The position numbers and the translations under genes were made by a program. Below, in pieces: positions 26,093 to 52,877 of a DNA stretch of 53,976 nt; the first letter of the stretch is position 1; each line of letters opens with the position of its first letter. Source of the DNA: Pseudotabrizicola sp. (lineage in GTDB: Bacteria; Pseudomonadota; Alphaproteobacteria; Rhodobacterales; Rhodobacteraceae). The stretch is taken from assembly GCF_030684215.1 (NCBI RefSeq), contig NZ_JAUXOV010000017.1:1-53976 (forward strand), in the 5' to 3' direction. The notes below the pieces were generated by a model. The model searched no databases. It was not told where the DNA came from and saw only the letters and a program-made list of their open reading frames with translations.

Positions 26093-26127
26093 GAGTAACT
26101 CCTTCGAGATTTCGTCTCATGCCATCC

Positions 26128-26158
26128 CAAATAGGGCTTCCAACGGTTGTAAGGTCAA
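26128..26158 (-). promoter_or_regulatory. CueR-type promoter for copZ-DUF305
   Basis: On the minus strand, -35 TTGACC (26158-26153) and -10 TATTTG (26133-26128) are separated by 19 bp. The spacer begins TTACAACC and carries GGAAG in the right arm. The overlong 19-bp spacer with an ACCTT...GGAAG dyad is the hallmark of MerR/CueR-activated promoters. Confidence 0.7.
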
Positions 26159-26197
26159 GAGCACAAGACTGTGAAACTGGCTTTTTTGCCAAACCCC

Positions 26198-26228
26198 TTG
26201 ACCTTACCATGATAGGAAGGCCTATCTG
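26198..26228 (+). promoter_or_regulatory. CueR-type promoter for copA
   Basis: -35 TTGACC (26198-26203) and -10 TATCTG (26223-26228) have a 19-bp spacer. The dyad ACCTTACC...GGAAGG inside the spacer aligns base-for-base in length with the Escherichia coli copA/CueR site. It is located 34 bp before the copA ATG. Confidence 0.78.
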
Positions 26229-26262
26229 CATAAGCGGAACAGAGTCGAAAAGGTGGTCCGCC

Positions 26263-28731
26263 ATGAACAGCAACCCTAAAACCATGCAGCCCGACCTGCC
26301 ATCAAGGGTCGTCCTTGATATCGAGGGCATGACCTGTGCGTCCTGCGTCGGGCGGGTGGAGCGAGCTTTGAACGCGCTGCCGGGGGTTGATGCTGCGTCT
26401 GTCAACCTTGCGACCGAACGCGCAGAGATCCTGGGCCATGATCTGGACCGAGCGGCGCTGGTGAAGGCGGTCGAGGATGTCGGCTATGATGTTGCCTCTC
26501 CTCCGATCGATCTGGAGATTGAGGGGATGACCTGTGCGTCCTGTGTCGCGCGGGTGGAACGGGCGCTGAAATCCGTGCCGGGCGTAACAGAAGCCACAGT
26601 CAACCTTGCGACCGAGCGCGCGCATGTGACGGGACAGGCCGATGTGGCCAAGCTGATCCGCGCCATCGCCGACGCTGGGTATGACGCGCATCCTGCGATA
26701 TCGGCCGTGTCAGATGAAACCGCGTCCCGTAAAGCCGTCGAGGAAACCTCTCTCAAGCGCGATCTGTCGATTGCGGCTGTGCTGTCGCTGCCGGTCTTTG
26801 TGCTGGAGATGGGGTCGCATCTGTTCATGTGGATGCATATGGCGGTGATGAACACCATCGGCATGCAGAACAGCTGGTATCTGCAATTCTTGCTGACCAC
26901 GGCGGTGCTGATTGGTCCCGGCCGTCGGTTCTACGCCAAGGGCTTTCCCGCGCTTGCCCGGCTTGCGCCTGACATGAACAGCCTTGTGGCCGTTGGCACA
27001 TCGGCGGCATACGGTTATTCGCTGGTCGCGACCTTTGCCCCCGGCCTGCTGCCCGCAGGCACGGTGAACGTGTACTACGAAGCTGCAGCGGTGATCGTGA
27101 CACTCATCCTGCTGGGACGATATCTGGAAAGCCGCGCCAAGGGCCGCACGTCCGAAGCGATCAAGCGGCTGGTGGGTTTGCAGGCCAAGACCGCCCGCGT
27201 GATCCGCAAGGGCACCGTCGTTGATCTGCCGATAGCCGAGGTGCGGCCCGGCGACCTTGTCGAGGTCCGCCCCGGCGAGCGGGTTCCCGTAGATGGAGCA
27301 GTAACGCAAGGGACCAGCTGGATCGACGAAAGCATGATCTCGGGTGAACCCCTGCCGGTTGAAAAGACCACCGGCAGCGCGGTCACCGGCGGCACGGTCA
27401 ACCAAACCGGCGCCTTCACCTTCCGCGCCACGGCGGTAGGCGAGGCCACAATGCTGGCGCAGATCATCCGCATGGTCGAGGCGGCGCAGGGCGGCAAGCT
27501 GCCTATCCAGACGCTGGTGGACCAGATCACACTATGGTTCGTGCCCGCCGTGATGGCGCTGGCCGCGCTGACCTTTGCCGTCTGGCTGATCTTTGGCCCT
27601 GACCCGGCGCTGACCTTTGGCCTTGTGAATGCGGTGGCGGTTCTGATCATCGCCTGCCCCTGTGCCATGGGTCTGGCCACCCCGACCTCGATCATGGTCG
27701 GCACCGGGCGGGGGGCGGAACTGGGGGTGCTGTTTCGCAAGGGTGAGGCCTTGCAGGCTTTGCAGGACGTGCGGGTTGTGGCCTTTGACAAGACCGGCAC
27801 GCTGACCGAAGGAAAGCCCCGCCTGACCGACTTGCACCTTGCCGCCGGCTTTGACCGCGCGCTTGTGCTGGCCGCCGTTGCGGCGGCAGAGGCAAAGTCC
27901 GAACACCCGATTGCGCGCGCCATCGTTGCAGCGGCGGTCGAGGAGGGCCTGACGCTGCCAGAGGTGACCGGGTTCGCCTCGCTGACCGGCTATGGCGTCG
28001 AGGCGCAGGCGGGCGAAAGCCGGGTCGAAATCGGCGCTGACCGCTATATGACCAAGCTGGGTCTTGATGTGGCCCCCTTTGCCGAGGTCGCGGCCCGACT
28101 GGCGGATGAGGGCAAGTCGCCCCTTTATGCTGCTATGGACGGCCAATTGGCTGCTATCCTTGCCGTGGCGGACCCAATCAAGGAAACCACACCACAAGCC
28201 ATCCGCGCCCTGCATGCGCTTGGCCTGAAGGTGGCGATGATCACCGGCGACAACGCCCGCACGGCGCAGGCCATCGCGCGCCAGCTGAGCATTGACGAGG
28301 TGGTGGCAGAAGTGCTGCCCGACGGCAAGGTGCTGGCGGTAAAACGGCTTAAGGCACCGGGACCGCTGGCCTATGTCGGCGACGGCATAAACGATGCCCC
28401 GGCACTGGCCGAGGCGGATGTTGGTCTGGCCGTCGGCACCGGCACCGATATCGCGATTGAGGCGGCGGATGTGGTGCTGATGACGGGGCGGCTGACGGCA
28501 GTGTCTGACGCCATCGCGCTGTCCAAGGCCACGATGCGCAACATCCGGCAGAACCTGTTCTGGGCCTTTGCCTATAACGCGGCGCTGATCCCTGTGGCGG
28601 CGGGTGTCTTGTGGCCCGCCTTTGGCATCCTGCTGTCGCCGGTCTTTGCTGCCGGGGCCATGGCGCTGTCATCGGTCTTTGTCCTTGGCAACGCGCTGCG
28701 GCTGCGGCGCTATTCCCCCGCGCAATCCTGA
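26263..28731 (+). CDS. copA: Cu(I)-exporting P1B-type ATPase
   Basis: 822 residues from the ATG at 26263. The in-frame extension to 26119 overlaps the promoter, so is not coding. Two N-terminal HMA domains with CASC loops (Cys25/28 and Cys91/94), eight membrane helices, ion-path CPC (465-467, ACPCAMG), the TGE region as SGEPLPV, phosphorylation Asp509 in DKTGTLT, the P1B-specific SEHPIARAI and hinge [17 protein letters not shown]-terminal [15 protein letters not shown] fits P1B-1 (Cu+). It exports cytoplasmic Cu(I) to the periplasm. cueR follows 13 bp after the stop. Confidence 0.93.
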
Positions 28732-40594: not shown

Positions 40595-40897
40595 TCCGCA
40601 CCCACATCTTTTGCTCGATCAGATGAACGCGCATGGCGATCGCTGTGTGACACTGCCGCGTCACATGGGCCGGTGCGCGAAAGGTCATGACCTGTTCCTG
40701 TCAGCAGGCCCGGCGCGAGCAATGGTAAATCAGGATACGGCCCTATCCTGTCGGGTATAAGGGCACCCATTTTGGGGCAAATTGTGAACGATTGTCGGCC
40801 GGCCGCTATCCGATTTTGGCGCTGTTAGATGCCGACGCGGATTAGCTTTGAAGGGGGTGGTTAGGGAAAACAGGGTTAACAGAAAGAGGCCCTGCCA
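40595..40897. other. Intergenic gap with probable promoter, no gene seen
   Basis: 303 bp between two glycosyltransferase genes on the same strand. The part from 40780 to 40895 is less GC-rich and ends in AAAGAGG before the next ATG, so a second promoter of the locus probably lies here. No clear operator or terminator hairpin. Confidence 0.35.
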
Positions 40898-41812
40898 ATG
40901 ACCATGCATTCCACAAACCTGATCAACATGATTATACCCGGCCCGGCATCTTCCGCTGCGCCAAAGTCAGGCATCGAGGTCGCCTTGGTCATGCCCTGCT
41001 ACAACGAGGCCCTGCGCCTTGATTCAGAAACAATCCTGAATTTTTTGCACGGTCATCCGGCTGTTCATCTTATTCTTGTGAACGATGGAAGCACCGACAC
41101 GACCCTATCACTGCTGGTGTCGATGACCCACGTTCTACCGCGTCAGATCACCGTCGTCGATCTGTCGGTCAACAGTGGAAAGGCCGAAGCGGTGCGCCAG
41201 GGCTTATTGCATGCACTGGCAATGGATGCCCCTCTTGTGGCCTATTGGGATGCCGATCTGGCAACCCCACTGGACGCTGTCGAAGACTTTGCCCGCGTCG
41301 CCAAACGTCATCCGGAAATCGCAGTCATGTTCGGTTCGCGCCGTCAGATGCTGGGACACCGCATCCGCCGCACATTCATGCGCAAGGTTATTTCCCGCAC
41401 CTGTGCAACGATGGCCCGCATGGCCCTGTCTCTGGCGATTTCCGATACCCAGTGCGGCGCCAAGTTGTTGCGCGCCAATGATGCGCTACGCGAGGCCGTC
41501 GCGACCCCATTCACTGCCGGTTGGCTGTTTGACGTTGAACTGTTCGCGCGTGTCCGCCGTGCCGCTCACCCTGCCGAGAACGGCTTTTACGAATTCCCCC
41601 TGCCACAGTGGGACGAAATTCCAGGCTCCAAAGTCTCGGGTCGGGCGGTTATCAAGGCGGCGATCCGCATGTTGGGCCTAATTGGCGAATATCGGCTTGG
41701 GCTTAAAGCCAGCCAACAGGCCAAAACTGCCACGACGCCAAGCAGCAGCCCCCGGCTGTTCCGCGGGGGTCGCGCGATCGACCTGCCGTTGGCCTTTGCG
41801 GCAATAGAGTGA
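40898..41812 (+). CDS. GT-A family 2 glycosyltransferase (dolichyl-phosphate glucosyltransferase-like)
   Basis: 304 residues. N-terminal nucleotide-sugar fold VALVMPCYNEALRLD, VNDGSTDTTLS (DGS), NSGKAEAVRQGLLHAL and catalytic AYWDADLATPLDAV (DAD metal motif), with GSRR, then the acceptor-side SDTQCGAKLLRAN and WLFDVELF. This arrangement is like Alg5/DPM-type enzymes that load a polyprenyl phosphate. No obvious C-terminal membrane helices. It overlaps the flippase gene by one base (TGATG). Confidence 0.87.
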   Translation: MTMHSTNLINMIIPGPASSAAPKSGIEVALVMPCYNEALRLDSETILNFLHGHPAVHLILVNDGSTDTTLSLLVSMTHVLPRQITVVDLSVNSGKAEAVRQGLLHALAMDAPLVAYWDADLATPLDAVEDFARVAKRHPEIAVMFGSRRQMLGHRIRRTFMRKVISRTCATMARMALSLAISDTQCGAKLLRANDALREAVATPFTAGWLFDVELFARVRRAAHPAENGFYEFPLPQWDEIPGSKVSGRAVIKAAIRMLGLIGEYRLGLKASQQAKTATTPSSSPRLFRGGRAIDLPLAFAAIE

Positions 41813-43536: not shown

Positions 43537-44706
43537 ATGACCCCGATTACCCCTGTTCTGCTTTGTGGCGGTTCTGGCACCCGTCTGTGGCCCATGTCGA
43601 GCAAAGACCTGCCCAAGCAATTTGGCCGGCTGTTGGGCGAAGAAACGCTTTACCAGTCGGCTCTGACGCGGCTTTCTGGGCCAGGCTGGGCCGCCCCTGT
43701 TGTTGTGACCGCTGACGACTATCTGAACATCGCCCGAGATCAGGCCAAGGCGGTCGGCATTGCTCCATCCTGCCTGATTGTCGAACCCTCCGCCCGCAAT
43801 ACGGCCCCAGCAATTTTGGCCGCAGCAGTCCACTTGTTCAGCATGGACGCCAATGCGCTGGTTCTGGTCGCTCCGTCAGATCACGCCATTCCCGATGCTG
43901 CTGCGTTCCGCGCCGCCGTCGAAGCAGGCACGCAATCGGCCCGAAAGGGCCAGATCGTCACCTTTGGCATCCGCCCGACCCGCGCGGAGACCGGTTATGG
44001 CTGGCTGGAACTGGGCGAAAGCCCTGAAGATTTCCTTCCACGGCCCCTGTCGCTGAAAGGCTTTGTCGAAAAGCCAAAAACACCGCAGGCCGAGGCGATG
44101 CTTGCCTCTGGCAAATATCTTTGGAATTCCGGTATCTTCTTGGCCGAAGCGCGCACGCTGATTGCGGCCTTCTTGGCCCATGCCGAACACATGATGATGC
44201 CGGTGATCGATGCGGTCATGGATGCAAAAGAAGCCAAGGATACGCTTCATCTGTCGGCCACATCCTGGAGCAAGGCAGAAGACATCTCGGTTGACGTTGC
44301 GGTGATGGAAAAGGCGACGAACCTCTGCGTCGTCCCATTTGCCGCTGGTTGGTCAGACCTAGGCGATTGGGACGCAATCTGGCGCGAAATGACGTCAGAA
44401 GCCGGTGGTATGGTGACACATGGGGACGTGACCGTCATCGGCTGCGAGGACAGTCTGCTCAGGTCTGACACGCAGGGTGTTGAATTGGTCGGCATTGGTC
44501 TGACGAACATGATCGTTGTGGCGATCGGCGATGCCATTCTTGTGGCCCACAAAAGTCGTGTCCAAGACGTGAAAGAAGCCGTTGCCAGGCTGAGTGCGCG
44601 CTCTGTCGGTCAGTCAGAAGGGCTCCGCTCGCGGATCACCAAAGGCGTCGTACCACTTTTCTTCCGGCCGCACAATCACAGACCACCGATTGCCGCCCTT
44701 TGCTGA
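43537..44706 (+). CDS. manC: Mannose-1-phosphate guanylyltransferase without the isomerase domain
   Basis: 389 residues with the nucleotidyltransferase start VLLCGGSGTRLWPMSSKDLPKQF, where the family Arg of PLSR is Ser. Other blocks are VEPSARNTAPAILAAA, VLVAPSDHAI, GIRPTRAETGYGWLELGE, FVEKPKTPQAEAML, YLWNSGIFLAEA, ISVDVAVMEKA and AGWSDLGDWDAIW. It makes GDP-mannose from GTP and Man-1-P. Most homologs of this type are about 470 residues with a C-terminal cupin; here the cupin is missing and the last 30 residues (RSRITKGVVPLFFRPHNH) look unrelated. The cupin occurs alone at 32.9 kb. Confidence 0.85.
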   Translation: MTPITPVLLCGGSGTRLWPMSSKDLPKQFGRLLGEETLYQSALTRLSGPGWAAPVVVTADDYLNIARDQAKAVGIAPSCLIVEPSARNTAPAILAAAVHLFSMDANALVLVAPSDHAIPDAAAFRAAVEAGTQSARKGQIVTFGIRPTRAETGYGWLELGESPEDFLPRPLSLKGFVEKPKTPQAEAMLASGKYLWNSGIFLAEARTLIAAFLAHAEHMMMPVIDAVMDAKEAKDTLHLSATSWSKAEDISVDVAVMEKATNLCVVPFAAGWSDLGDWDAIWREMTSEAGGMVTHGDVTVIGCEDSLLRSDTQGVELVGIGLTNMIVVAIGDAILVAHKSRVQDVKEAVARLSARSVGQSEGLRSRITKGVVPLFFRPHNHRPPIAALC

Positions 44707-44744
44707 TCAACCAACCTACCCGATTGGATAGGTCGGGTGTCCGG

Positions 44745-44758
44745 TTGCGCGCTATCAA
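44745..44758. promoter_or_regulatory. FNR/NnrR-like box upstream of the NO-sensor operon
   Basis: TTGCGCGCTATCAA has the CRP/FNR-family form TTG-N8-CAA. The left half TTGCG is the NnrR-type arm and the right half ATCAA the FNR-type arm. It lies 41 bp before the FIST start codon, in the 93-bp gap after manC. Fits control by a nitric-oxide- or oxygen-responsive regulator; binding is inference from motif and position. Confidence 0.5.
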
Positions 44759-44799
44759 ACCGCCCCCACTCTGTTATCGTTCCGCGTGTGAGGGCAGGT

Positions 44800-45990
44800 A
44801 TGAAAATTTCGACGGTACAATCAAGCGCAACAAGCGCCTTTAAGGCCATTTCCGAGATCGCACTGCGACTTGACGTTGAGCGTAATGGCAGACCTGATTT
44901 TCTGGCTTTGCACTTCGGTGTTGGCAGTTCAGCCAATCAGTTGCGAGCAGAGGCGATGGCGCAGTTTGAGACCGCTGCGCTGCATGGCGGATCTTCTTGT
45001 CTTGGGATCATGACGCATGAAGGCGTAAACATTGCCAGTGGTGCCGGGGTGGGTGCTTTTGCGATTTGGGATGACGAAGGCAGTTTCGGCACCGGATCGG
45101 CCGATCTGGGCGCAGATGCCTTTGACAGTGCTCAGCGCGCCACAGCGGCGGCGCTTGCCGCAGCAGGGCGTCCGGGGGAAATCCCTGATCTGGTTTGGCT
45201 CACCGTGGCGCCCGGCCGCGAAGAACAGGTTCTTGATGGCATCCGTGCCGTGATCGGACATGAAACCCCGATTGTGGGGGGCAGTGCAGCCGACAATGAT
45301 GTCAGCGGAAGCTGGGTGCAGTTCGGACCTTTGGACAACCACAGCGATGGTGTTGTCGTGTCAGTCCTTTTTCCTTCAACCAGCATCTCGTCAGCCTATC
45401 AAAGCGGCTACGCGCCGACCGGCGACAGTGGGTTTGTCACGCGGGTAGATGGGCGCCGCCTTTTTGAAATCGACGGCCAGCCTGCGGCGACCGTTTATCA
45501 TGGCTGGACACAGGGTGCGGTTCCAGTCGCGACCACAGTGCCGGAAGCAATTCTTTCCTCAGCCACTCTGTGGCCTCTGGGAAGGGTTAGCCGGCAGATA
45601 GCAAGTGTACCATTTCACCTTTTGGCCCATCCTTCGGTTGCCAACCCAGACGGATCGCTTGACCTTTTCGCAGACGTGGAACTGGGTGACCAGCTTTGGC
45701 AGATGCAGGGTTCTGCAGACAGTCTTGTTGCAAGGGCTGGACGTGTGGCCCGACAAGCCCGTGACGACCTGTCGGTTCCTATGGCCGGTGCATTGGTCGT
45801 CTATTGCGGAGGTTGCATGCTGGCTGTCCGCGATCGGATGGACGAAGTTTGCGAAGGCATCAACGAAGCGCTTGGTGAGACACAGTGGATTGGGGTATTC
45901 ACTTTTGGCGAACAGGGCGTTCCACTTGGTGCCGTCTCCAAACATGGAAACCTGATGATTTCTTGCACCGTTTTTGGGGCGGACACATGA
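44800..45990 (+). CDS. FIST-domain protein, NosP-type candidate nitric-oxide sensor
   Basis: 396 residues from the ATG at 44800 (GGGCAGG upstream; the extension to 44737 covers the FNR-like box). FIST-N (about 30-220): FLALHFGVGSS, GSSCLGIMTHEGVN, GAFAIWDDEGSFG, TPIVGGSAADNDVSG. FIST-C (about 225-375): YHGWTQGAV, FHLLAHPSVA, GALVVYCGGCMLAV and WIGVFTFGEQG. Bacterial FIST proteins next to histidine kinases include NosP, a heme NO sensor. Several candidate heme-ligand His residues exist, but I cannot single one out. Its stop overlaps the H-NOX start (ATGA), so the two are coupled. Confidence 0.8.
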   Translation: MKISTVQSSATSAFKAISEIALRLDVERNGRPDFLALHFGVGSSANQLRAEAMAQFETAALHGGSSCLGIMTHEGVNIASGAGVGAFAIWDDEGSFGTGSADLGADAFDSAQRATAAALAAAGRPGEIPDLVWLTVAPGREEQVLDGIRAVIGHETPIVGGSAADNDVSGSWVQFGPLDNHSDGVVVSVLFPSTSISSAYQSGYAPTGDSGFVTRVDGRRLFEIDGQPAATVYHGWTQGAVPVATTVPEAILSSATLWPLGRVSRQIASVPFHLLAHPSVANPDGSLDLFADVELGDQLWQMQGSADSLVARAGRVARQARDDLSVPMAGALVVYCGGCMLAVRDRMDEVCEGINEALGETQWIGVFTFGEQGVPLGAVSKHGNLMISCTVFGADT

Positions 45991-46538
45991 AAGGGATGGT
46001 ATTTGTCGAGCTTTTGGCCATGGCCGAAGATGCTTTCGGAGAAGCCGCCGTAGACAGCGTTATTGACAGCGCAGATTTGCCTTCCGGCGGGGCCTACACT
46101 GCTGTGGGCAACTATTCCTGCGACGAATTGATGGCGTTGGTCCGAGGATTTTCACAGCACAGCGGTATCCCAGCCCCCGAATTGCAGCGTCTTTTTGGCC
46201 ATTGGATGATGAACAGTTTTGTGCGTCACTATCCCGACTTTTTTGTGGGCAGGAATGGAAGCCTTGATATGCTGGCCGCCATCGAGGATGAGATTCATGT
46301 TGAAGTCCGCAAGCTTTACCCGGATGCCGATCTTCCCCATTTCGACATCCATCGCCCTGATGCGCATCAGATGCATATGACCTATCGTTCACCCCGCCCC
46401 TTGGCCGATTTCTGCCACGGCCTGATCGAAGGGTGTGTTTCCCAATTTGGCGAGACAGCGGTGATCAGTCGTGAAGATCGCAAAATTGACGATGCAACCG
46501 AGGCCGACTTCCAGATCCTTATCAAGAACAAGGCATGA
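45987..46538 (+). CDS. hnoX: H-NOX heme nitric-oxide-binding protein
   Basis: 183 residues from the ATG at 45987. Proximal heme ligand His104 (EDEIHVEV), Pro117, and the heme-propionate clamp Tyr133-x-Ser135-x-Arg137 (TYRSPR). These are at the same spacing as His102/Pro115/Tyr131/Ser133/Arg135 in Thermoanaerobacter H-NOX. The position equivalent to its O2-stabilising Tyr140 is Phe142, predicting an NO-selective, non-O2-binding pocket. The stop overlaps the kinase start by 4 bases (ATGA). It likely inhibits or modulates the adjacent kinase when NO is bound. Confidence 0.9.
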   Translation: MKGMVFVELLAMAEDAFGEAAVDSVIDSADLPSGGAYTAVGNYSCDELMALVRGFSQHSGIPAPELQRLFGHWMMNSFVRHYPDFFVGRNGSLDMLAAIEDEIHVEVRKLYPDADLPHFDIHRPDAHQMHMTYRSPRPLADFCHGLIEGCVSQFGETAVISREDRKIDDATEADFQILIKNKA

Positions 46539-49500
46539 CAGAACAGGCGGACGACAAGCCGGTTTCACGGGCACGGTACGAACGGGAAAAAGCCGCGAGA
46601 GCCGAAGCCGAAGCCCTGCTTGAACGCAAGAGCCGAGAGCTTTACGAAGCAAACCAGCGCCTGATCCTCGAAACCGAAGCCGTCCGTGCTGCTTTGACGG
46701 AAACCGAAGCGATCCGCCTTCGCGAGGCCGCGGCATTGCGGGAGCGGTTTATCCTTTCAGAAGTGCTCGCAGCGCTTTCGGGCAAATCGAGTGCGACAGA
46801 GGCCATGCAGACGATGCTGCACGTGCTGCGAACCGAATTCGCAATCTTTGATGCCTGTTTCGTTCAGGCTGCGGGTACCGAGGTTCGTATAATTGCAACG
46901 ACATTACCTGATCACGCTGGCCTGCTGTTGCCATTGCAGGCAAGTGTTCTGGAACGACCACGTCGATTGACAGGCCTGTCAAAGCTAACGCATGGTAAGG
47001 TACTGCCAGGTGAATTCGCCAAATTCGCGTCAGTCATCCTTGCACCTTTGCAAATACCTGACGAAAGCGCGAGTGCGCTCTTGCTGGGCTGTAAGCAAGG
47101 CGGGCGCTTTTCATCCGCTGATCTGCGTGTTTTGGAACGGGTTGCAACCGTTGCGGCACAAAGCCTGATTGCCCTGCGTGAAGCGCGCCGCAACGCACTT
47201 TTGGTGTCCATGATTGAAGGTCGCCAGATTGACAAGATTGGGCCAGGCGTGTTGGACGCGCCGCTTGAGGCCGTTCACCGCGCCTTTAGCCGTTTGACGG
47301 ACATGCAAGGCGAAGTTGTCAGCATCCTTGACAGTCTGCTGGGAGCACCCTTGGCCACGGCGGATGCTGCGATTGATACGGCCCTTGCCCGTATGGGCAC
47401 ACTTACCCGAACCGACCGTGTCTATGTCTTTCGCCTCCGTGCCGGTGGTGAATTTATCGACAACACGCATGAATGGTGCAGCAGTGGCATCGAACCGTCC
47501 CAAGAAATGCTACAAAACATCCCTGCCGAAATGATCGACCACTGGCGCAAGGAATTTGAAGACGGGCGCGAAGTACTGATTTCAGACGTGCAGGCGATGA
47601 ATGATGCGGCACCGGAAAAGGCGATTCTGCTGGAACAGGGCATCCGGTCGCTATTGGCGGTCCCGATGTTTCAGGACGGAACCTTTCAAGGTTTTGTCGG
47701 CTATGACGCTGTCCACCACCCGCGCAAGTTTCTGCCCGGCGAGGTGCATCTGATTCGTTCGGTTGCCAAGGTCATCGTATCCATTCTGGGGCGGCGTGAT
47801 GCAGAGGCGGCTTTGGTCGCCGCCCATGCCGAAACAGCCGCACAACGCGCACAGTTGCTATCGGTACTTTCGGCCATGCCTGATCTGGTTGTCGAACTTG
47901 ATCGTTCCGGTCGCTTCATTGCATGGCATTCCGGGGCGATCATCGTCCCCAAGGTTCTGAGCGAGGCCTTTTCCGGGCGGACCCTTGAAGAGGTCTTGCC
48001 GCATGATCTCGCCGTCGCGGGGCGAAAGGTTCTCGCGGAGATTGACAAAGGGATCAGGCCCGGAGCGCGCAGCTTTCCCTTCACGCTGCCGGGGGAATCA
48101 GAACGATGGTGGCAACTGTCTGCCTCGGCGATGGGCAACCGCGGATATCTTTTCGTGCTGCGTGACATCACCGTTGCGAGGGCTCAGACAGCCGAAATCG
48201 AACGCCTTTCGGAAATCGCCCGCCGTACGACGAATCTTGTCATTGTCACAGATGCCTCGCGTCGGATCGAGTGGGTAAACGACGCCTTTGAAAGAACGAC
48301 GGGCTGGACGCTGGACGAGGTGAAAGGTCGCAATCCCGCAAGTTTCTTGCAGTGCGATCAGACCGACCCTGAAACCGTACTGAAACTGCGCGCCGCCTTG
48401 GATCGGGGTGAAGGGGCGCAAGTCGAAATCCTGAACCAAGATCGCAGGGGTCAGAAGTATTGGCTGGCGCTGGATATCCAGCCCCTGCAAGATCGCTCCG
48501 GACACCTACGGGGGTTCATGGCCGTTCAAACGGACATTACGGAAAGGCGCATGCAGTCAGAGGCGCTTCAGCGCTCGGCCAGCGCCGCAGGCCACGCCCG
48601 CGCCACCCTGGAGGCCGCTGTCAGCGCCCTGCAGGACGGGTTTGTTCTTTATGACGCCGATGACCGGCTGGTCATTTGCAACGACCGTTACCGTGAAATC
48701 TATCCGCGCACTGCGCATGCTATTGTGCCCGGCGCGACCTATCGCGATATCCTGCAAACGGGTCTGATCCATGGCGAATATGCCGATGCGGTTGGCCAAG
48801 AAGAGGCCTGGCTTGCCCAGCGCATGCAACTCCACCGCGCCCCCTTTAGCGAATTTGAACAGCAAATGGCAGACGGCAGCTGGCTGAGGGTTTTTGAAAA
48901 GGCGACTCCCGATGGCGGCCGTGTCGGTTTGCGCGTCGATATCACCGCGCTGAAGCTGGCTGAACAGCGGGCACTGGCAGACCGTTCCGCAGCGATGGAG
49001 GCGAGCCAGGACGGCATTGCCATTACTGATGCCGAGGGCCGCTATCTCTATATGAACCGCGCCCATCTGGCGATGTTCGGATTTTCGACCGAGGCCGAGG
49101 TGATCGGCAAACCGTGGACGATTGTCTATGGCCCGGAGGAAGCCGATTGGATGCTCACAAATGCAATGCCGCGTTTCTTGGCCGAAGGTCATTGGGCTGG
49201 TGAGATTGCCGGACGGACCCGCGACGGACAGCGGGTGGATCAGGACATATCGCTGACGTTGAAAGACGATGGTGGCATTCTCTGCATCGCGCGGGATGTC
49301 AGTATGCGACGGCACGAGGCCGCGGAACGAGAGCGGCTGCGCGAAGAGTTGCACTTAGCACAGCGGCGCGAGGCAGTTGGCCAGATGGCGGCTGGTCTGG
49401 CACACGATTTCAACAACCTACTTGCTACGATTGGGGGGAGCGCAGCCCTGATCGAGAGAGCCGCTGAACCTGATGGAATGATTGCTGCGGGGGCCGCCAG

Positions 49501-50494
49501 AATTGAGGCCGCCACAAATCAGGCGGCCAATCTGGTCAAGCGACTTCTGACGATGGGCGCCCGCCCTGCCGACCGTAAAACACTGGATTTGCGCCAACCC
49601 GTGCGGGACGCGGCCGAACTTGCGCGCGCCAGTCTTAAAGCTGCGCATCGCTTAACACTTACGCAACCCGACAGTCCCATCGAGGTTCTGGTCGATGCCA
49701 CGGATATTCTTCAGGTCGTGCTGAACCTTGTGATCAATGCCCGCGACGCCATGGGCGACCAGCCGGGCGAGATTACGGTAACGGTGACCGAAGCCGCCGA
49801 AAGTGACCTGATGGGTCCGTTTGCAGTGGGCACGCTTGATCCAAAGCAGCGACACGTTTGCCTTAGCATCAGCGACACAGGACCGGGCATGGATGCTCAG
49901 CTTGCGGCCCGGGTCTTCCAACCCTACGTGTCGACCAAGGGAAACAAGGGGACGGGCCTCGGTCTTGCAATCGTCGCCTCTGTCGTAACGGCAAATGGTG
50001 GCGCGGTCCGGTTGGATACGGTGCCAAAGGAAGGCGCGCGTTTTGCCGTATTGTGGCCCGTCCGCGTTGAAACACCCAAACTGGTCAGCGCGCCGATTCA
50101 AGGTCTGACCGGCAGACTTGATGGCCGCACAATTCTGGTGGCGGATGACCATCACGACCTGCTTGAGGTGCTGACGGCCCTGCTGGAGGCAGCCGGTGCC
50201 GAAGTCGCTCCGTCGACAGACCCCGCCGACATTTTGGCAGCTGTTGCTGGCGACCCTACGGCCTGGGATCTGGTCATCACGGATTTCGATATGCCCGGCA
50301 TGACGGGGGCCGAGCTTTCCGATGCGGTTCATCTGGTTGCACCACACATGCCAGTCGTTCTTGTCACGGCACTGCCCGGAATTTCTGGCCGCGAGGGTGC
50401 AAGATTCGATTCCATCCTTTCAAAGCCTGTGGATCGCGCTGCACTTGTTATGGCGGCGGAAACTGCCATACTGAGATCAAAATCAAAGGTATAG
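46535..50494 (+). CDS. Hybrid sensor histidine kinase: coiled coil, 2 GAF, 4 PAS, HisKA, HATPase, REC
   Basis: 1319 residues, cytosolic (no membrane helices). Order: charged coiled coil (about 5-70), GAF-like (71-215), GAF (265-415; RVYVFRLR, ILLEQGIRSLLAVPM, GFVGYDAV), PAS (441-545; AMPDLVVELDRSGR), PAS (560-670; NLVIVTDASRRIEWVNDAFERTTGW), PAS (692-805; LQDGFVLYDADDRLVICNDRY) and PAS (820-920; SQDGIAITDAEGRYLYMNRAHL). Then HisKA with His957 (GLAHDFNN), an ATPase with N-box NLVINARDAM, DTGPGM (about 1115), GTGLGLA (about 1139), and a C-terminal REC with Asp1250 (VITDFDMPG). Coupled to H-NOX, followed 4 bp later by its probable response regulator. Confidence 0.92.
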   Translation: MTEQADDKPVSRARYEREKAARAEAEALLERKSRELYEANQRLILETEAVRAALTETEAIRLREAAALRERFILSEVLAALSGKSSATEAMQTMLHVLRTEFAIFDACFVQAAGTEVRIIATTLPDHAGLLLPLQASVLERPRRLTGLSKLTHGKVLPGEFAKFASVILAPLQIPDESASALLLGCKQGGRFSSADLRVLERVATVAAQSLIALREARRNALLVSMIEGRQIDKIGPGVLDAPLEAVHRAFSRLTDMQGEVVSILDSLLGAPLATADAAIDTALARMGTLTRTDRVYVFRLRAGGEFIDNTHEWCSSGIEPSQEMLQNIPAEMIDHWRKEFEDGREVLISDVQAMNDAAPEKAILLEQGIRSLLAVPMFQDGTFQGFVGYDAVHHPRKFLPGEVHLIRSVAKVIVSILGRRDAEAALVAAHAETAAQRAQLLSVLSAMPDLVVELDRSGRFIAWHSGAIIVPKVLSEAFSGRTLEEVLPHDLAVAGRKVLAEIDKGIRPGARSFPFTLPGESERWWQLSASAMGNRGYLFVLRDITVARAQTAEIERLSEIARRTTNLVIVTDASRRIEWVNDAFERTTGWTLDEVKGRNPASFLQCDQTDPETVLKLRAALDRGEGAQVEILNQDRRGQKYWLALDIQPLQDRSGHLRGFMAVQTDITERRMQSEALQRSASAAGHARATLEAAVSALQDGFVLYDADDRLVICNDRYREIYPRTAHAIVPGATYRDILQTGLIHGEYADAVGQEEAWLAQRMQLHRAPFSEFEQQMADGSWLRVFEKATPDGGRVGLRVDITALKLAEQRALADRSAAMEASQDGIAITDAEGRYLYMNRAHLAMFGFSTEAEVIGKPWTIVYGPEEADWMLTNAMPRFLAEGHWAGEIAGRTRDGQRVDQDISLTLKDDGGILCIARDVSMRRHEAAERERLREELHLAQRREAVGQMAAGLAHDFNNLLATIGGSAALIERAAEPDGMIAAGAARIEAATNQAANLVKRLLTMGARPADRKTLDLRQPVRDAAELARASLKAAHRLTLTQPDSPIEVLVDATDILQVVLNLVINARDAMGDQPGEITVTVTEAAESDLMGPFAVGTLDPKQRHVCLSISDTGPGMDAQLAARVFQPYVSTKGNKGTGLGLAIVASVVTANGGAVRLDTVPKEGARFAVLWPVRVETPKLVSAPIQGLTGRLDGRTILVADDHHDLLEVLTALLEAAGAEVAPSTDPADILAAVAGDPTAWDLVITDFDMPGMTGAELSDAVHLVAPHMPVVLVTALPGISGREGARFDSILSKPVDRAALVMAAETAILRSKSKV

Positions 50495-50498
50495 TGCT

Positions 50499-51116
50499 AT
50501 GCGCGTCCTGATTGCCGATGACCACGATCTTTTGCGTGACACCCTTGCCCTTTGGTTTCGCCAAGAAAACATAGACGTCACCCTTGCCCGAGACTTGCCC
50601 TCGGCGCTTGACGCCGTTGCCAAGGCTGATGCGCCTTTTGATCTGATCCTGCTGGATTACGGCATGTCGGGGATGAATGGTCTGGATGGTTTGGAACTTG
50701 CCCTGCGCGAGGTAACCGGGGCTCGTATCGCCCTGATGTCCGGAACTGCGCCGCGCGAAATTGCTGAAAAGGCACTTGAAATGGGGGCTGCTGGCTTTCT
50801 GCCCAAGACGCTTTCAGCAAAATCACTGGTCAATGCAGTTCGCTTTATGGCGATGGGGGAACAGTTCGCGCCGATAGATTTCATGACGGCTCCCGCCGAA
50901 GTCGCCCCTTTGAATGCTTTGGCCGAAAAACTTTCTCCACGCGAAACGCAGGTCCTGAAAGGTCTGTGCGAAGGCAAAGCAAACAAAGAAATCGCGCGTG
51001 ACCTTGGGATTCAAGAGCCAACGGTCAAACTGCATATGAAGACTCTGTACCGCAAGATCGGTGCTCACAACCGGACTCAGGCCGCCATGATCGCGAAAGA
51101 GGCGGGGTTGTTTTAG
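50499..51116 (+). CDS. NarL/LuxR-type response regulator
   Basis: 205 residues: receiver domain (1-120) with acidic pair Asp7/Asp8, phosphoacceptor Asp53 (ILLDYGMSG), MSGT Thr/Ser, and Lys in FLPKTLS. LuxR-type HTH at about 140-200 (LSPRETQVLKGLCEGKANKEIARDLGIQEPTVKLHMKTLYRKIGAHNRTQAA). It starts 4 bp after the kinase stop. It is the DNA-binding output of the NosP/H-NOX kinase, probably via phosphotransfer or direct phosphorylation. Targets are unknown; the polysaccharide genes just upstream are candidates. Confidence 0.9.
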   Translation: MRVLIADDHDLLRDTLALWFRQENIDVTLARDLPSALDAVAKADAPFDLILLDYGMSGMNGLDGLELALREVTGARIALMSGTAPREIAEKALEMGAAGFLPKTLSAKSLVNAVRFMAMGEQFAPIDFMTAPAEVAPLNALAEKLSPRETQVLKGLCEGKANKEIARDLGIQEPTVKLHMKTLYRKIGAHNRTQAAMIAKEAGLF

Positions 51117-51683
51117 GGGGCGTCTGTGCCAGCATTCGAAATACCCTTGAAAAAATCCGGTTGCTGCCCTGCCAATTGAGCCCCCTGCGGAAAAGGGGTT
51201 CACGCGGCGCATTCCCTGTTTGAGACTGTCAGACGACCATCGGGGAGAGCGGCTCTTGTGACCGCAACCCGGTAACGACCACATCGTCCCGATGCATTTT
51301 ACCTACCCGAATGAACGTGCGGTGTTATCCTGCCGTGCTCAGGGTGCATGGCTTGGTCTGTGCGATGAAAGCCTTGAGTATTCATTCCAGATTGACCCTG
51401 CGATGATACGCATCAGCGCCGCAAACACCCATTGACCCGCCCTCGTCGGGCTTTGTAAGCGCGGCTGAAGCCGGTCGAAAGCCTCCACCTCTTGTGTGTC
51501 GTGGCTCGTATTTGCTTTTTGGTGGCGCTTTATCGCTGATCTCCCCATCTGTCAGCCGCGCTACTGAACGCGCATTTACGTCCAATAATTGCATTTTTCG
51601 GTCGCACGCTGGCCGCCGCGCGACCGTGATTGCTCCCTTCGGTCACCGCTCAATCTGTCGAAACTATGCAGAGAGGTTTGGCC
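51117..51683. other. No gene recognised
   Basis: 567 bp between the response regulator and the beta-propeller gene. Open frames here lack ribosome sites and motifs. It may hold a rearrangement junction, since gene content changes from an NO circuit to fragments and IS6. No hairpin with a T-run was found after the regulator stop. Confidence 0.35.
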
Positions 51684-52877
51684 ATGGTAAAATCGTCCAA
51701 AAAGGGTGAGATAGCTCAAATGCGCACGAGAGCCGTGACGATCCTCGTCGGAACCAGCAAGGGTGCTTTTCTGATCTCGGGTGGGCCTGACCGCAACGGA
51801 TGGGCGGTCACCGGGCCTTTCTGTGGCGGTTGGCCAATCAACCATGTGATCGGGGACCCAGACACCGGCGACCTTTGGGCCGGAGGAGGCGGCGACTGGC
51901 ACGGCGCAGGGATCTGGCGGTCAACCGATGGCGGTGCTTCATGGTCTGTCATCAGGCTGACCAAAGGCACAATGGACAATTGGGCCGCCAATGACCAGGA
52001 TTTCGCCAAGATGATCGGTTGGAAGGACGAAGCGCTTCCCTTCACGAATTTCTCGCAGATCTGGTCACTGGGTCTCGCACACGGCACGCTTTACGCTGGC
52101 ACCAAACCCGCCAATCTACTTGCGAGCCACGACCGCGGCCTGACATGGGAGCGGATGGAGGGCCTTACCAAGCACCCGTCCGCAGGTAGCTGGGACGGCG
52201 GCGCTGCAGGCCTTGTCTTGCACAGCATCGTCGCCGATCCGGTAAACCCCAACAAGCTTTGGATCGGCATTTCTGCCGCAGGGGTTTTTGCCTCCGAGGA
52301 CCGTGGCAAAATCTGGGAACGGCGCAATCGTCTTTCGAACGCCGAGGCCTGTGCGCACCATGATCATCCTGCCGCACCGCGAAATGGCGAAACCGGCCAC
52401 TGCGTGCACAACATGATGCGCGCGCCGGGCGGAGAGGATGTCCTTTACCAGCAGAACCACCACGGGGTCTGGCGATCCACCAATGGGGGGCGGAGTTGGG
52501 ACGACATCGGACAGGGTTTGCCGTCGACCTTCGGCTTCCCGATCCGCGTCCATCCCCGTGACCCCAACATGATCTGGACGCTGCCGCTTAACGGCGATAG
52601 CGCGGGGCGCTATCCGCCGGATGCCGCCGCAGCAGTCTGGAAATCCTCTGATGGAGGCAAGAGCTGGGCCGACAAGCGCGACGGCCTGCCCCAGACTGCC
52701 TGCTTCTTTACTGTCCTGCGCCAAGCTATGGGCGGCGATCGTCAGGATCCTGCGGGCATCTACTTCGGCACCAACAGCGGCTCGATCTTTGCCAGCCTTG
52801 ATGAGGGAGACAGCTGGAGTGAGGTCGCGCGCCACCTTCCGACCGTCCTTTCAGTCGAAGTGCTGGACCGGAGCTGA
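51684..52877 (+). CDS. Asp-box (BNR/sialidase-like) beta-propeller protein
   Basis: 397 residues from the ATG at 51684 (AGAGAGG 7 bases upstream); ATG 51720 is an alternative. No signal peptide. Six Asp-box S-x-D-x-G-x-S/T-W turns: STDGGASW, SHDRGLTW, SEDRGKIW, STNGGRSW, SSDGGKSW, SLDEGDSW, marking a 6- or 7-bladed propeller of the WD40/YVTN/BNR-like type. No sialidase RIP motif or catalytic residues are evident, so hydrolase activity should not be assumed. Role unknown. Confidence 0.8.
   Translation: MVKSSKKGEIAQMRTRAVTILVGTSKGAFLISGGPDRNGWAVTGPFCGGWPINHVIGDPDTGDLWAGGGGDWHGAGIWRSTDGGASWSVIRLTKGTMDNWAANDQDFAKMIGWKDEALPFTNFSQIWSLGLAHGTLYAGTKPANLLASHDRGLTWERMEGLTKHPSAGSWDGGAAGLVLHSIVADPVNPNKLWIGISAAGVFASEDRGKIWERRNRLSNAEACAHHDHPAAPRNGETGHCVHNMMRAPGGEDVLYQQNHHGVWRSTNGGRSWDDIGQGLPSTFGFPIRVHPRDPNMIWTLPLNGDSAGRYPPDAAAAVWKSSDGGKSWADKRDGLPQTACFFTVLRQAMGGDRQDPAGIYFGTNSGSIFASLDEGDSWSEVARHLPTVLSVEVLDRS

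Follow-up and report, generated by a model that had tools for sequence, protein, structure and literature searches.

A FIST/H-NOX operon with a mosaic hybrid kinase beside exopolysaccharide genes in Pseudotabrizicola: a candidate dual-input switch

Can two different sensor proteins feed one histidine kinase? The question is raised by a 53,976-nucleotide stretch of DNA from Pseudotabrizicola sp. (contig NZ_JAUXOV010000017.1, positions 1 to 53,976; this whole stretch is the window below), in which a FIST gene and an H-NOX gene directly precede the gene for a very large hybrid histidine kinase. The original prediction took both proteins to be heme-type nitric oxide (NO) sensors that serve this one kinase. 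We find that the front of the kinase looks like two partner-kinase front ends joined, so the two sensor proteins probably steer one switch. With moderate confidence, we favour a dual-input hybrid kinase that, informed by H-NOX (of NO) and by FIST, would control exopolysaccharide through a response regulator. The idea of two sensors for one 1319-residue kinase thus gains support from the kinase itself, while the identity proposed for one of the two sensors does not stand.

The operon and its kinase

44800..45990, + strand: FIST protein, 396 residues, of a non-NosP subfamily, with H62, C67, H277, C336/C339 and H382 (Pfam, alignments)
45987..46538, + strand: H-NOX protein, 183 residues, with proximal H104 and YxSxR at 133-137 (Pfam, alignment)
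46535..50494, + strand: hybrid histidine kinase, 1319 residues, with presumed phospho-acceptor His957 in AHDFNN and presumed receiver Asp1250 (Pfam; residues from alignment)
46535..46669, + strand: kinase segment KN, residues 1-45, typical of H-NOX-partner kinases
46667..46846, + strand: kinase segment kf, about residues 45-105, typical of FIST-partner kinases
47231..48235, + strand: GAF and PAS insert of the kinase (about residues 233-567), missing from five aligned FIST-partner kinases of 916-955 residues
50499..51116, + strand: NarL/LuxR-family response regulator, REC and GerE, 205 residues (Pfam, NCBIfam)

Open reading frames and Pfam assignments in the window give the order FIST, H-NOX, hybrid histidine kinase and NarL/LuxR-family regulator. 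ATGA overlaps at both the FIST/H-NOX and the H-NOX/kinase junctions and a gap of 4 bases between kinase and regulator, all three anticipated by the original prediction, are borne out by the coordinates. Its FIST start at 44745 is probably too early, because the Met-x-Ile start of homologues aligns with 44800.

Pfam recognizes several PAS domains, GAF, HATPase_c and Response_reg in the kinase; HisKA is weak (25.7 bits, cut-off 26.9), and the AHDFNN motif is present. Two simpler operon types occur in the family. One pairs H-NOX with a kinase of roughly 450-630 residues that starts VSRxRYxRE..AR.EAE.LLE, the KN segment; the other pairs a window-type FIST with a kinase of roughly 916-955 residues that starts xEDERLREALxELQxLRxREA, the kf segment, followed by a regulator similar to that of the window. 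Read from its sequence, the window kinase is a mosaic of the two kinds of N-terminus, with KN and kf joined head to tail, and past the insert it aligns to its end with FIST-partner kinases. It equally belongs among H-NOX-partner hybrid kinases, as it adjoins the H-NOX gene, begins with a KN-type N-terminus and carries DHp and ATPase domains.

Across 198 genomes of the same family, each segment keeps company with its sensor. Full-type KN matches (at least 46 bits, from model position 8 or earlier) number 17, six of which had built the KN profile; 16 lie directly downstream of HNOB, the H-NOX domain of Pfam, and the seventeenth (in genome G118) begins at base 201 of its contig. A weaker match of 39.7 bits, in G017, likewise follows HNOB. 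On plasmids of Pseudooceanicola algae (71 bits) and Rhodobacteraceae SC52 (65 bits), H-NOX kinases likewise begin with KN, as does, weakly (30 bits), the H-NOX kinase of a Bacteroidota plasmid. Each of the eight kf matches lies in a kinase downstream of a window-type FIST, with FIST directly before the kinase in six and H-NOX in between in two composites. As seven of these eight had built the profile, the telling point is that no other match exists in the 198 genomes.

These findings suggest how the switch may work. H-NOX would dock on kinase residues ~1-45 and FIST on the following ~60, two tandem helical segments that precede the GAF/PAS, DHp, ATPase and receiver domains. The two sensors would jointly set the autophosphorylation of the kinase, and phosphate would then move to the NarL-type regulator, the presumed binder of a palindrome, CTAYCC-N4-GGRTAG, that stands ahead of the operon itself and at exopolysaccharide genes nearby. 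The regulator itself carries Response_reg and GerE domains in Pfam and is 56-75% identical to its counterparts in seven operons, five with FIST only, one with H-NOX only and one composite. We rejected NarL proper (NCBIfam NarL equivalog, 100.5 bits against a cut-off of 250) and place the protein in the wider NarL/LuxR family instead.

Two sensor proteins and their distribution

HNOB (PF07700) matches the window H-NOX at 124.4 bits (cut-off 25.5), and H104, Y133, S135 and R137 are invariant in seven aligned H-NOX sequences, so that the heme histidine and YxSxR are kept. Solved H-NOX structures match it in a sequence search, 6ocv best (E 3.8e-37). Phe142, five residues past the arginine of YxSxR, occupies what we take to be the position of the distal tyrosine in O2-binding H-NOX proteins. 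We regard the protein as a predicted NO sensor, which would bind heme and NO. A second HNOB match in the genome (L004, 70 bits) has proline in place of the heme histidine, which leaves the window H-NOX as the sole HNOB match of its genome with that residue. Read by eye, a GGDEF protein is encoded next downstream of this second match, which with its proline resembles the His-less group-5 H-NOX proteins described in the available part of a review (PMC8738867). Group 1, according to an excerpt of another paper, comprises diverse species without the conserved cysteine zinc site (PMC7108781). In Caulobacter, the kinase was not inhibited by NO-bound H-NOX, cysteine oxidation doing so instead, as an excerpt of that report describes (PMC12329717); H-NOX proteins with heme motifs therefore need not signal NO. 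Elsewhere in the window genome, NnrS occurs in two open copies and a third NnrS-like copy, and the cytochrome-d1 nitrite reductase family is absent. The third NnrS-like copy (G000:C57:82491-83348) has internal stop codons.

The window FIST contains both NosP-type domains (FIST 86.5 bits and FIST_C 78.2 bits in Pfam), and the original prediction called it NosP. That label has to be withdrawn: the NosP model NF041558 of NCBIfam gives 25.2 bits against a cut-off of 450, and GCTTAGE, the HHVR loop, the second cysteine of CDC and another histidine conserved in NosP-like FISTs are all missing. Because the protein is not NosP, two heme-type NO sensors and a two-threshold NO response are unproven. An alignment of 35 window-type and 31 NosP-like sequences falls into two subfamilies. 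Window-type FISTs have H62 (94%) and, in 35 of 35, C67 together with CxxC at 336-339, a form that the NosP-like set lacks; H277, H382, C336 and R219 are common to both subfamilies, the first two being found in most or all NosP-like FISTs compared. Among solved structures, a search by sequence with the window FIST gave chance-level matches alone (best E 0.23). Its AlphaFold model (mean predicted local distance difference test score, pLDDT, 87) matches eukaryotic FBXO22 and Toblerone-fold enzymes, and these model matches indicate the FIST fold, not a ligand. In the parts of the literature surveyed we found no heme ligand given for NosP. A FIST that adjoins H-NOX should thus not be named NosP by default.

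A graded or two-threshold response by two heme NO sensors of unlike affinity, as originally envisaged, is unlikely. The intact H-NOX motifs, the membership of NosP in the FIST family, the shared H277 and H382 and the frequent presence of globin, another heme gas binder, beside relatives of the window FIST all speak for it. Yet the window FIST lies far below the NosP model and lacks the residues just listed, and the genome already holds a separate NosP-like FIST (389 bits against that model, itself below the cut-off of 450) which, by eye and similarity, stands between a LuxR-type regulator and its own kinase.

The pairing of FIST with H-NOX is not common. FIST occurs in 83 and HNOB in 138 of the 198 family genomes, and by their coordinates the two adjoin in the window genome and G134 alone, among the matches listed. 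A class sample of 385 genomes has FIST in 120 and this class of H-NOX, at E 1e-10 or better, in 10; the two lie within 10 kb on the same contig in the window and in G356 alone, where FIST starts 3.6 kb beyond H-NOX. In a species-genome collection scanned with the FIST alignment, the best 80 of 197 confirmed loci (names are record names) include FIST/H-NOX/kinase loci of Pseudotabrizicola sediminis (L084), Aliishimia ponticola (L097) and metagenome-assembled genomes (MAGs) of Pseudorhodobacter antarcticus (L085, its kinase cut by the contig end), Rubellimicrobium (L087) and Paracoccus haematequi (L105), as well as a Cypionkella MAG (L086) in which FIST and H-NOX are followed by the contig end. 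With these six Rhodobacterales genomes or MAGs goes a seventh, degenerate case: in the MAG locus L091 (about 1200-1455), an 84-residue H-NOX with an internal deletion, its heme histidine gone, lies between FIST and kinase, possibly a loss in progress or an effect of MAG assembly. Besides the window, the composite arrangement is thus found in seven of the best 80 loci. A plasmid collection contains 18 records with a similar H-NOX and eight with a similar FIST; of the 18, the four examined show no annotated FIST adjoining, in a gene table that is incomplete, and of the eight, the one examined is without annotation. The species-genome scan also includes a record named Oceanobacillus (L113), probably a mixed assembly, whose 746 kb contig bears a FIST operon of Rhodobacterales type.

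The presence of KN follows that of H-NOX among giant kinases. We built a tree of 35 kinases with the KN columns unused, leaving out rows with kf below 40 bits, fragments below 800 residues and L148/L149. Fifteen of its rows form the giant-kinase clade. All five of these with H-NOX, the earliest branch L105 included, score 64.6-82.4 bits for KN, and all ten without it reach at most 43.9 bits or give no detection. With incomplete contigs included, KN is present in eight of eight H-NOX rows (seven genomes, one with an H-NOX remnant alone). Searched as whole genomes, five of five composite genomes tested contain this H-NOX class (114.6-134.4 bits), and no relocated H-NOX of the class was found in nine of nine H-NOX-less genomes, eight of which have one weak-class match (65.4-77.7 bits) and one none. 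The H-NOX label requires three changes on the tree, and we tentatively read the history as follows: H-NOX was gained once, together with its docking segment, and was later lost several times while the segment eroded.

The same rows bear on the possibility that a single sensor matters, FIST being the ancestral partner and H-NOX an inserted passenger that acts on another protein. Ten of the 15 giant-kinase rows keep FIST and kinase without H-NOX (FIST being there by design, as the loci were found through it), and the internally deleted H-NOX of L091 fits as well. We nevertheless think this quite unlikely: the H-NOX gene overlaps the kinase gene, and KN stands at the front of the kinase in rows with H-NOX and has eroded in rows without it.

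Exopolysaccharide genes and a candidate operator

40898..41812, + strand: glycosyltransferase family 2, exopolysaccharide gene (PF00535, 60.6 bits)
43537..44706, + strand: ManC-type nucleotidyltransferase, exopolysaccharide precursor gene (PF00483, 133.9 bits)
44716..44731, no strand: palindrome CTACCCGATTGGATAG, candidate operator, exact consensus match, 84 bp before the FIST start
40743..40758, no strand: second copy of the palindrome, CTATCCTGTCGGGTAT, with 1 mismatch, some 140 bp upstream of the glycosyltransferase-2 gene

What would such a switch control? Pfam finds a glycosyl hydrolase 5, two glycosyltransferases and the ManC-type nucleotidyltransferase upstream of the operon, which confirms the placement behind exopolysaccharide genes reported earlier; FIST starts 93 bp past the ManC-type gene, the last of this run. 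In a survey of 81 FIST loci, window included, at least 16, the window among them, have a ManC-like gene no more than 12 kb away, and at least 12 have a UDP-glucose/GDP-mannose dehydrogenase gene; both are lower bounds because contig ends cut some loci.

The palindrome was first spotted by eye in upstream sequences. The window has two matches with at most one mismatch (0.17 expected), and the one at 44716-44731 is the sole exact match in the 4.44 Mb genome. Among loci with a kf kinase, 27 of 44 have the palindrome (at most 1 mismatch) no more than 160 bp upstream of FIST, against a mean of 0.03 and a maximum of 1 of 44 in 200 first-order resamplings, with related loci counted singly; where no kf kinase was detected, 3 of 32 loci have it within 250 bp. 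Five relatives without H-NOX (L092, L093, L096, L101 and L103) carry it before FIST, and eight of Marivita/Roseicyclus type, likewise without H-NOX (L088-L090, L094, L095 and L098-L100), do not. Nine of the 11 exact sites in six composite genomes fall at this locus. Further, 11 of 25 additional locus sites head exopolysaccharide-type genes: the glycosyltransferase-2 gene of the window (site at 40743), an HlyD-type gene and ManC in L084, divergent pyruvyl-transferase and Wza-type export genes in L085, a Wza-type gene in L105 (within its open frame, near a possible start), Wzz-like genes in L113, L126 and L128 (by eye; Pfam GNVR is below cut-off in L128 only) and, in L118, L123 and L150, UDP-glucose/GDP-mannose dehydrogenase genes about 8.7-8.9 kb after FIST. 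These last genes run towards a gene for an RTX-repeat protein. At the level of sequence, the shared palindrome and the recurring neighbours support the link between operon and exopolysaccharide that had been suggested from position; the binder of the palindrome, the genes regulated and the direction of regulation we infer. No Rfam family matches at gathering threshold over 44400-51700, and a simple sigma-70 and terminator scan of 44550-44900 found none.

Several observations weigh against the dual-input switch. First, the second half of KN (model positions ~11-50) scores 21-47 bits in other kinases; kinases with this half alone, mostly of 700-960 residues, occur in many family genomes, and the window genome has one of 867 residues (L231, G000:C68:97420) with neither H-NOX nor FIST as neighbour. 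Second, the kinase downstream of a strong H-NOX in G004 (143 bits) has no KN, and the L091 kinase retains KN despite its internally deleted H-NOX. Third, the co-variation of KN with H-NOX amounts to three independent contrasts; all three agree, and with so few independent pairs it stays below significance (sign test, p 0.25). Finally, the palindrome is missing before FIST in 17 of the 44 loci, five of the nine exact locus sites are of the FIST-upstream kind that suggested it, leaving four others, and the other 14 of the 25 sites fall within other genes or next to genes that Pfam does not match, or were unexamined. A reversed-pattern control yields 16 sites in the six composite genomes, so the number of palindromes is not unusual and their placement alone is.

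In 18 of the 81 loci (L110, L113, L115-L118, L122-L126, L128, L131, L136, L145-L147 and L150), FIST is preceded by a globin gene on its own strand at a distance of no more than 3 kb, and none of the 18 has H-NOX. PF00042 identifies the globin in three examples tested, and the solved structures closest to one of them are those of bacterial hemoglobins, 3wfw and 3s1i among them. No globin is found upstream in the eight loci with H-NOX or its remnant, of which L091 has no upstream sequence to show one. Relatives with short kinases often carry globin in place of H-NOX. Very unlikely, if still a live rival given the conserved cysteines and the heme-protein neighbours, is a FIST that serves as heme or redox helper (through CxxC 336-339 and Cys67), loading or tuning H-NOX or the adjoining globin: window-type FISTs repeatedly adjoin one or the other and hold these cysteines in a form of their own, yet many of their loci have neither heme protein, and all eight kf kinases, found without FIST as bait, follow a FIST.

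More tentatively, and as a possibility we would not bank on, the dual-input kinase may be one form of a modular Rhodobacterales exopolysaccharide switch, in which a core of FIST, kinase and regulator takes up an exchangeable heme gas module and the composite kinase acts as a coincidence detector. The modules would then be globin beside short kinases, or H-NOX beside giant kinases that have acquired the docking helix of an H-NOX kinase, and the composite kinase would bear two unlike sensor proteins, bound to N-terminal helices in tandem. A kinase so equipped was not met in the open-licence literature searched.

Elsewhere in the window, a BNR/sortilin-like repeat protein is encoded after the operon (51630-52877) and a heavy-metal P-type ATPase (HMA, E1-E2 ATPase) at 26119-28731.

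Comparison with known systems

Excerpts of earlier work already describe H-NOX/kinase and NosP/kinase systems (PMC8738867, PMC12570481, PMC8846402). The circuit had been put forward as undescribed, which is true in part. FIST genes in H-NOX group-1 gene neighbourhoods are in print, in a network (PMC8738867, section 10, Figure 6 legend), so the proximity itself is not new; that section, as available, describes no operon architecture, kinase mosaic, operator or function for FIST near H-NOX. The operon of FIST, H-NOX and a single kinase, or a mosaic kinase, was not found in open-licence literature, covered by titles and the starts of abstracts, with most subscription journals outside. The parts of the literature surveyed leave unstated which part of a kinase recognizes an auxiliary sensor such as H-NOX or FIST. 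Here the mosaic kinase and the H-NOX-less relatives with an eroded segment point to two short docking sites, testable by truncation. With the palindrome, a gas-sensing path to Rhodobacterales exopolysaccharide also acquires a predicted operator in DNA and predicted target genes.

Legionella, in the part of the report seen, has Hnox1, Hnox2 and NosP in three separate operons with separate partners (PMC11237717). It thus combines FIST-type and H-NOX sensors in one cell, whereas the window has both in one kinase operon. The HnoX/HnoK pairs of Shewanella oneidensis and Vibrio cholerae and H-NOX/HnoK of Caulobacter resemble the window in that the H-NOX gene directly precedes a hybrid kinase gene, in the heme histidine and YxSxR, and in the N-terminal segment, which in the window resembles the segment of related alphaproteobacterial H-NOX kinases. 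They differ in lacking a FIST gene in the operon and a second N-terminal segment, and the window kinase exceeds twice the length of the Rhodobacterales H-NOX kinases used for comparison (about 450-630 residues). Shewanella, going by a title, reportedly has NosP and the H-NOX network in one cell. In NosP/NahK (NosP/NosK) systems, finally, the gene for a FIST protein adjoins those for a kinase and a regulator, as in the window, which adds H-NOX and whose FIST is of a separate subfamily.

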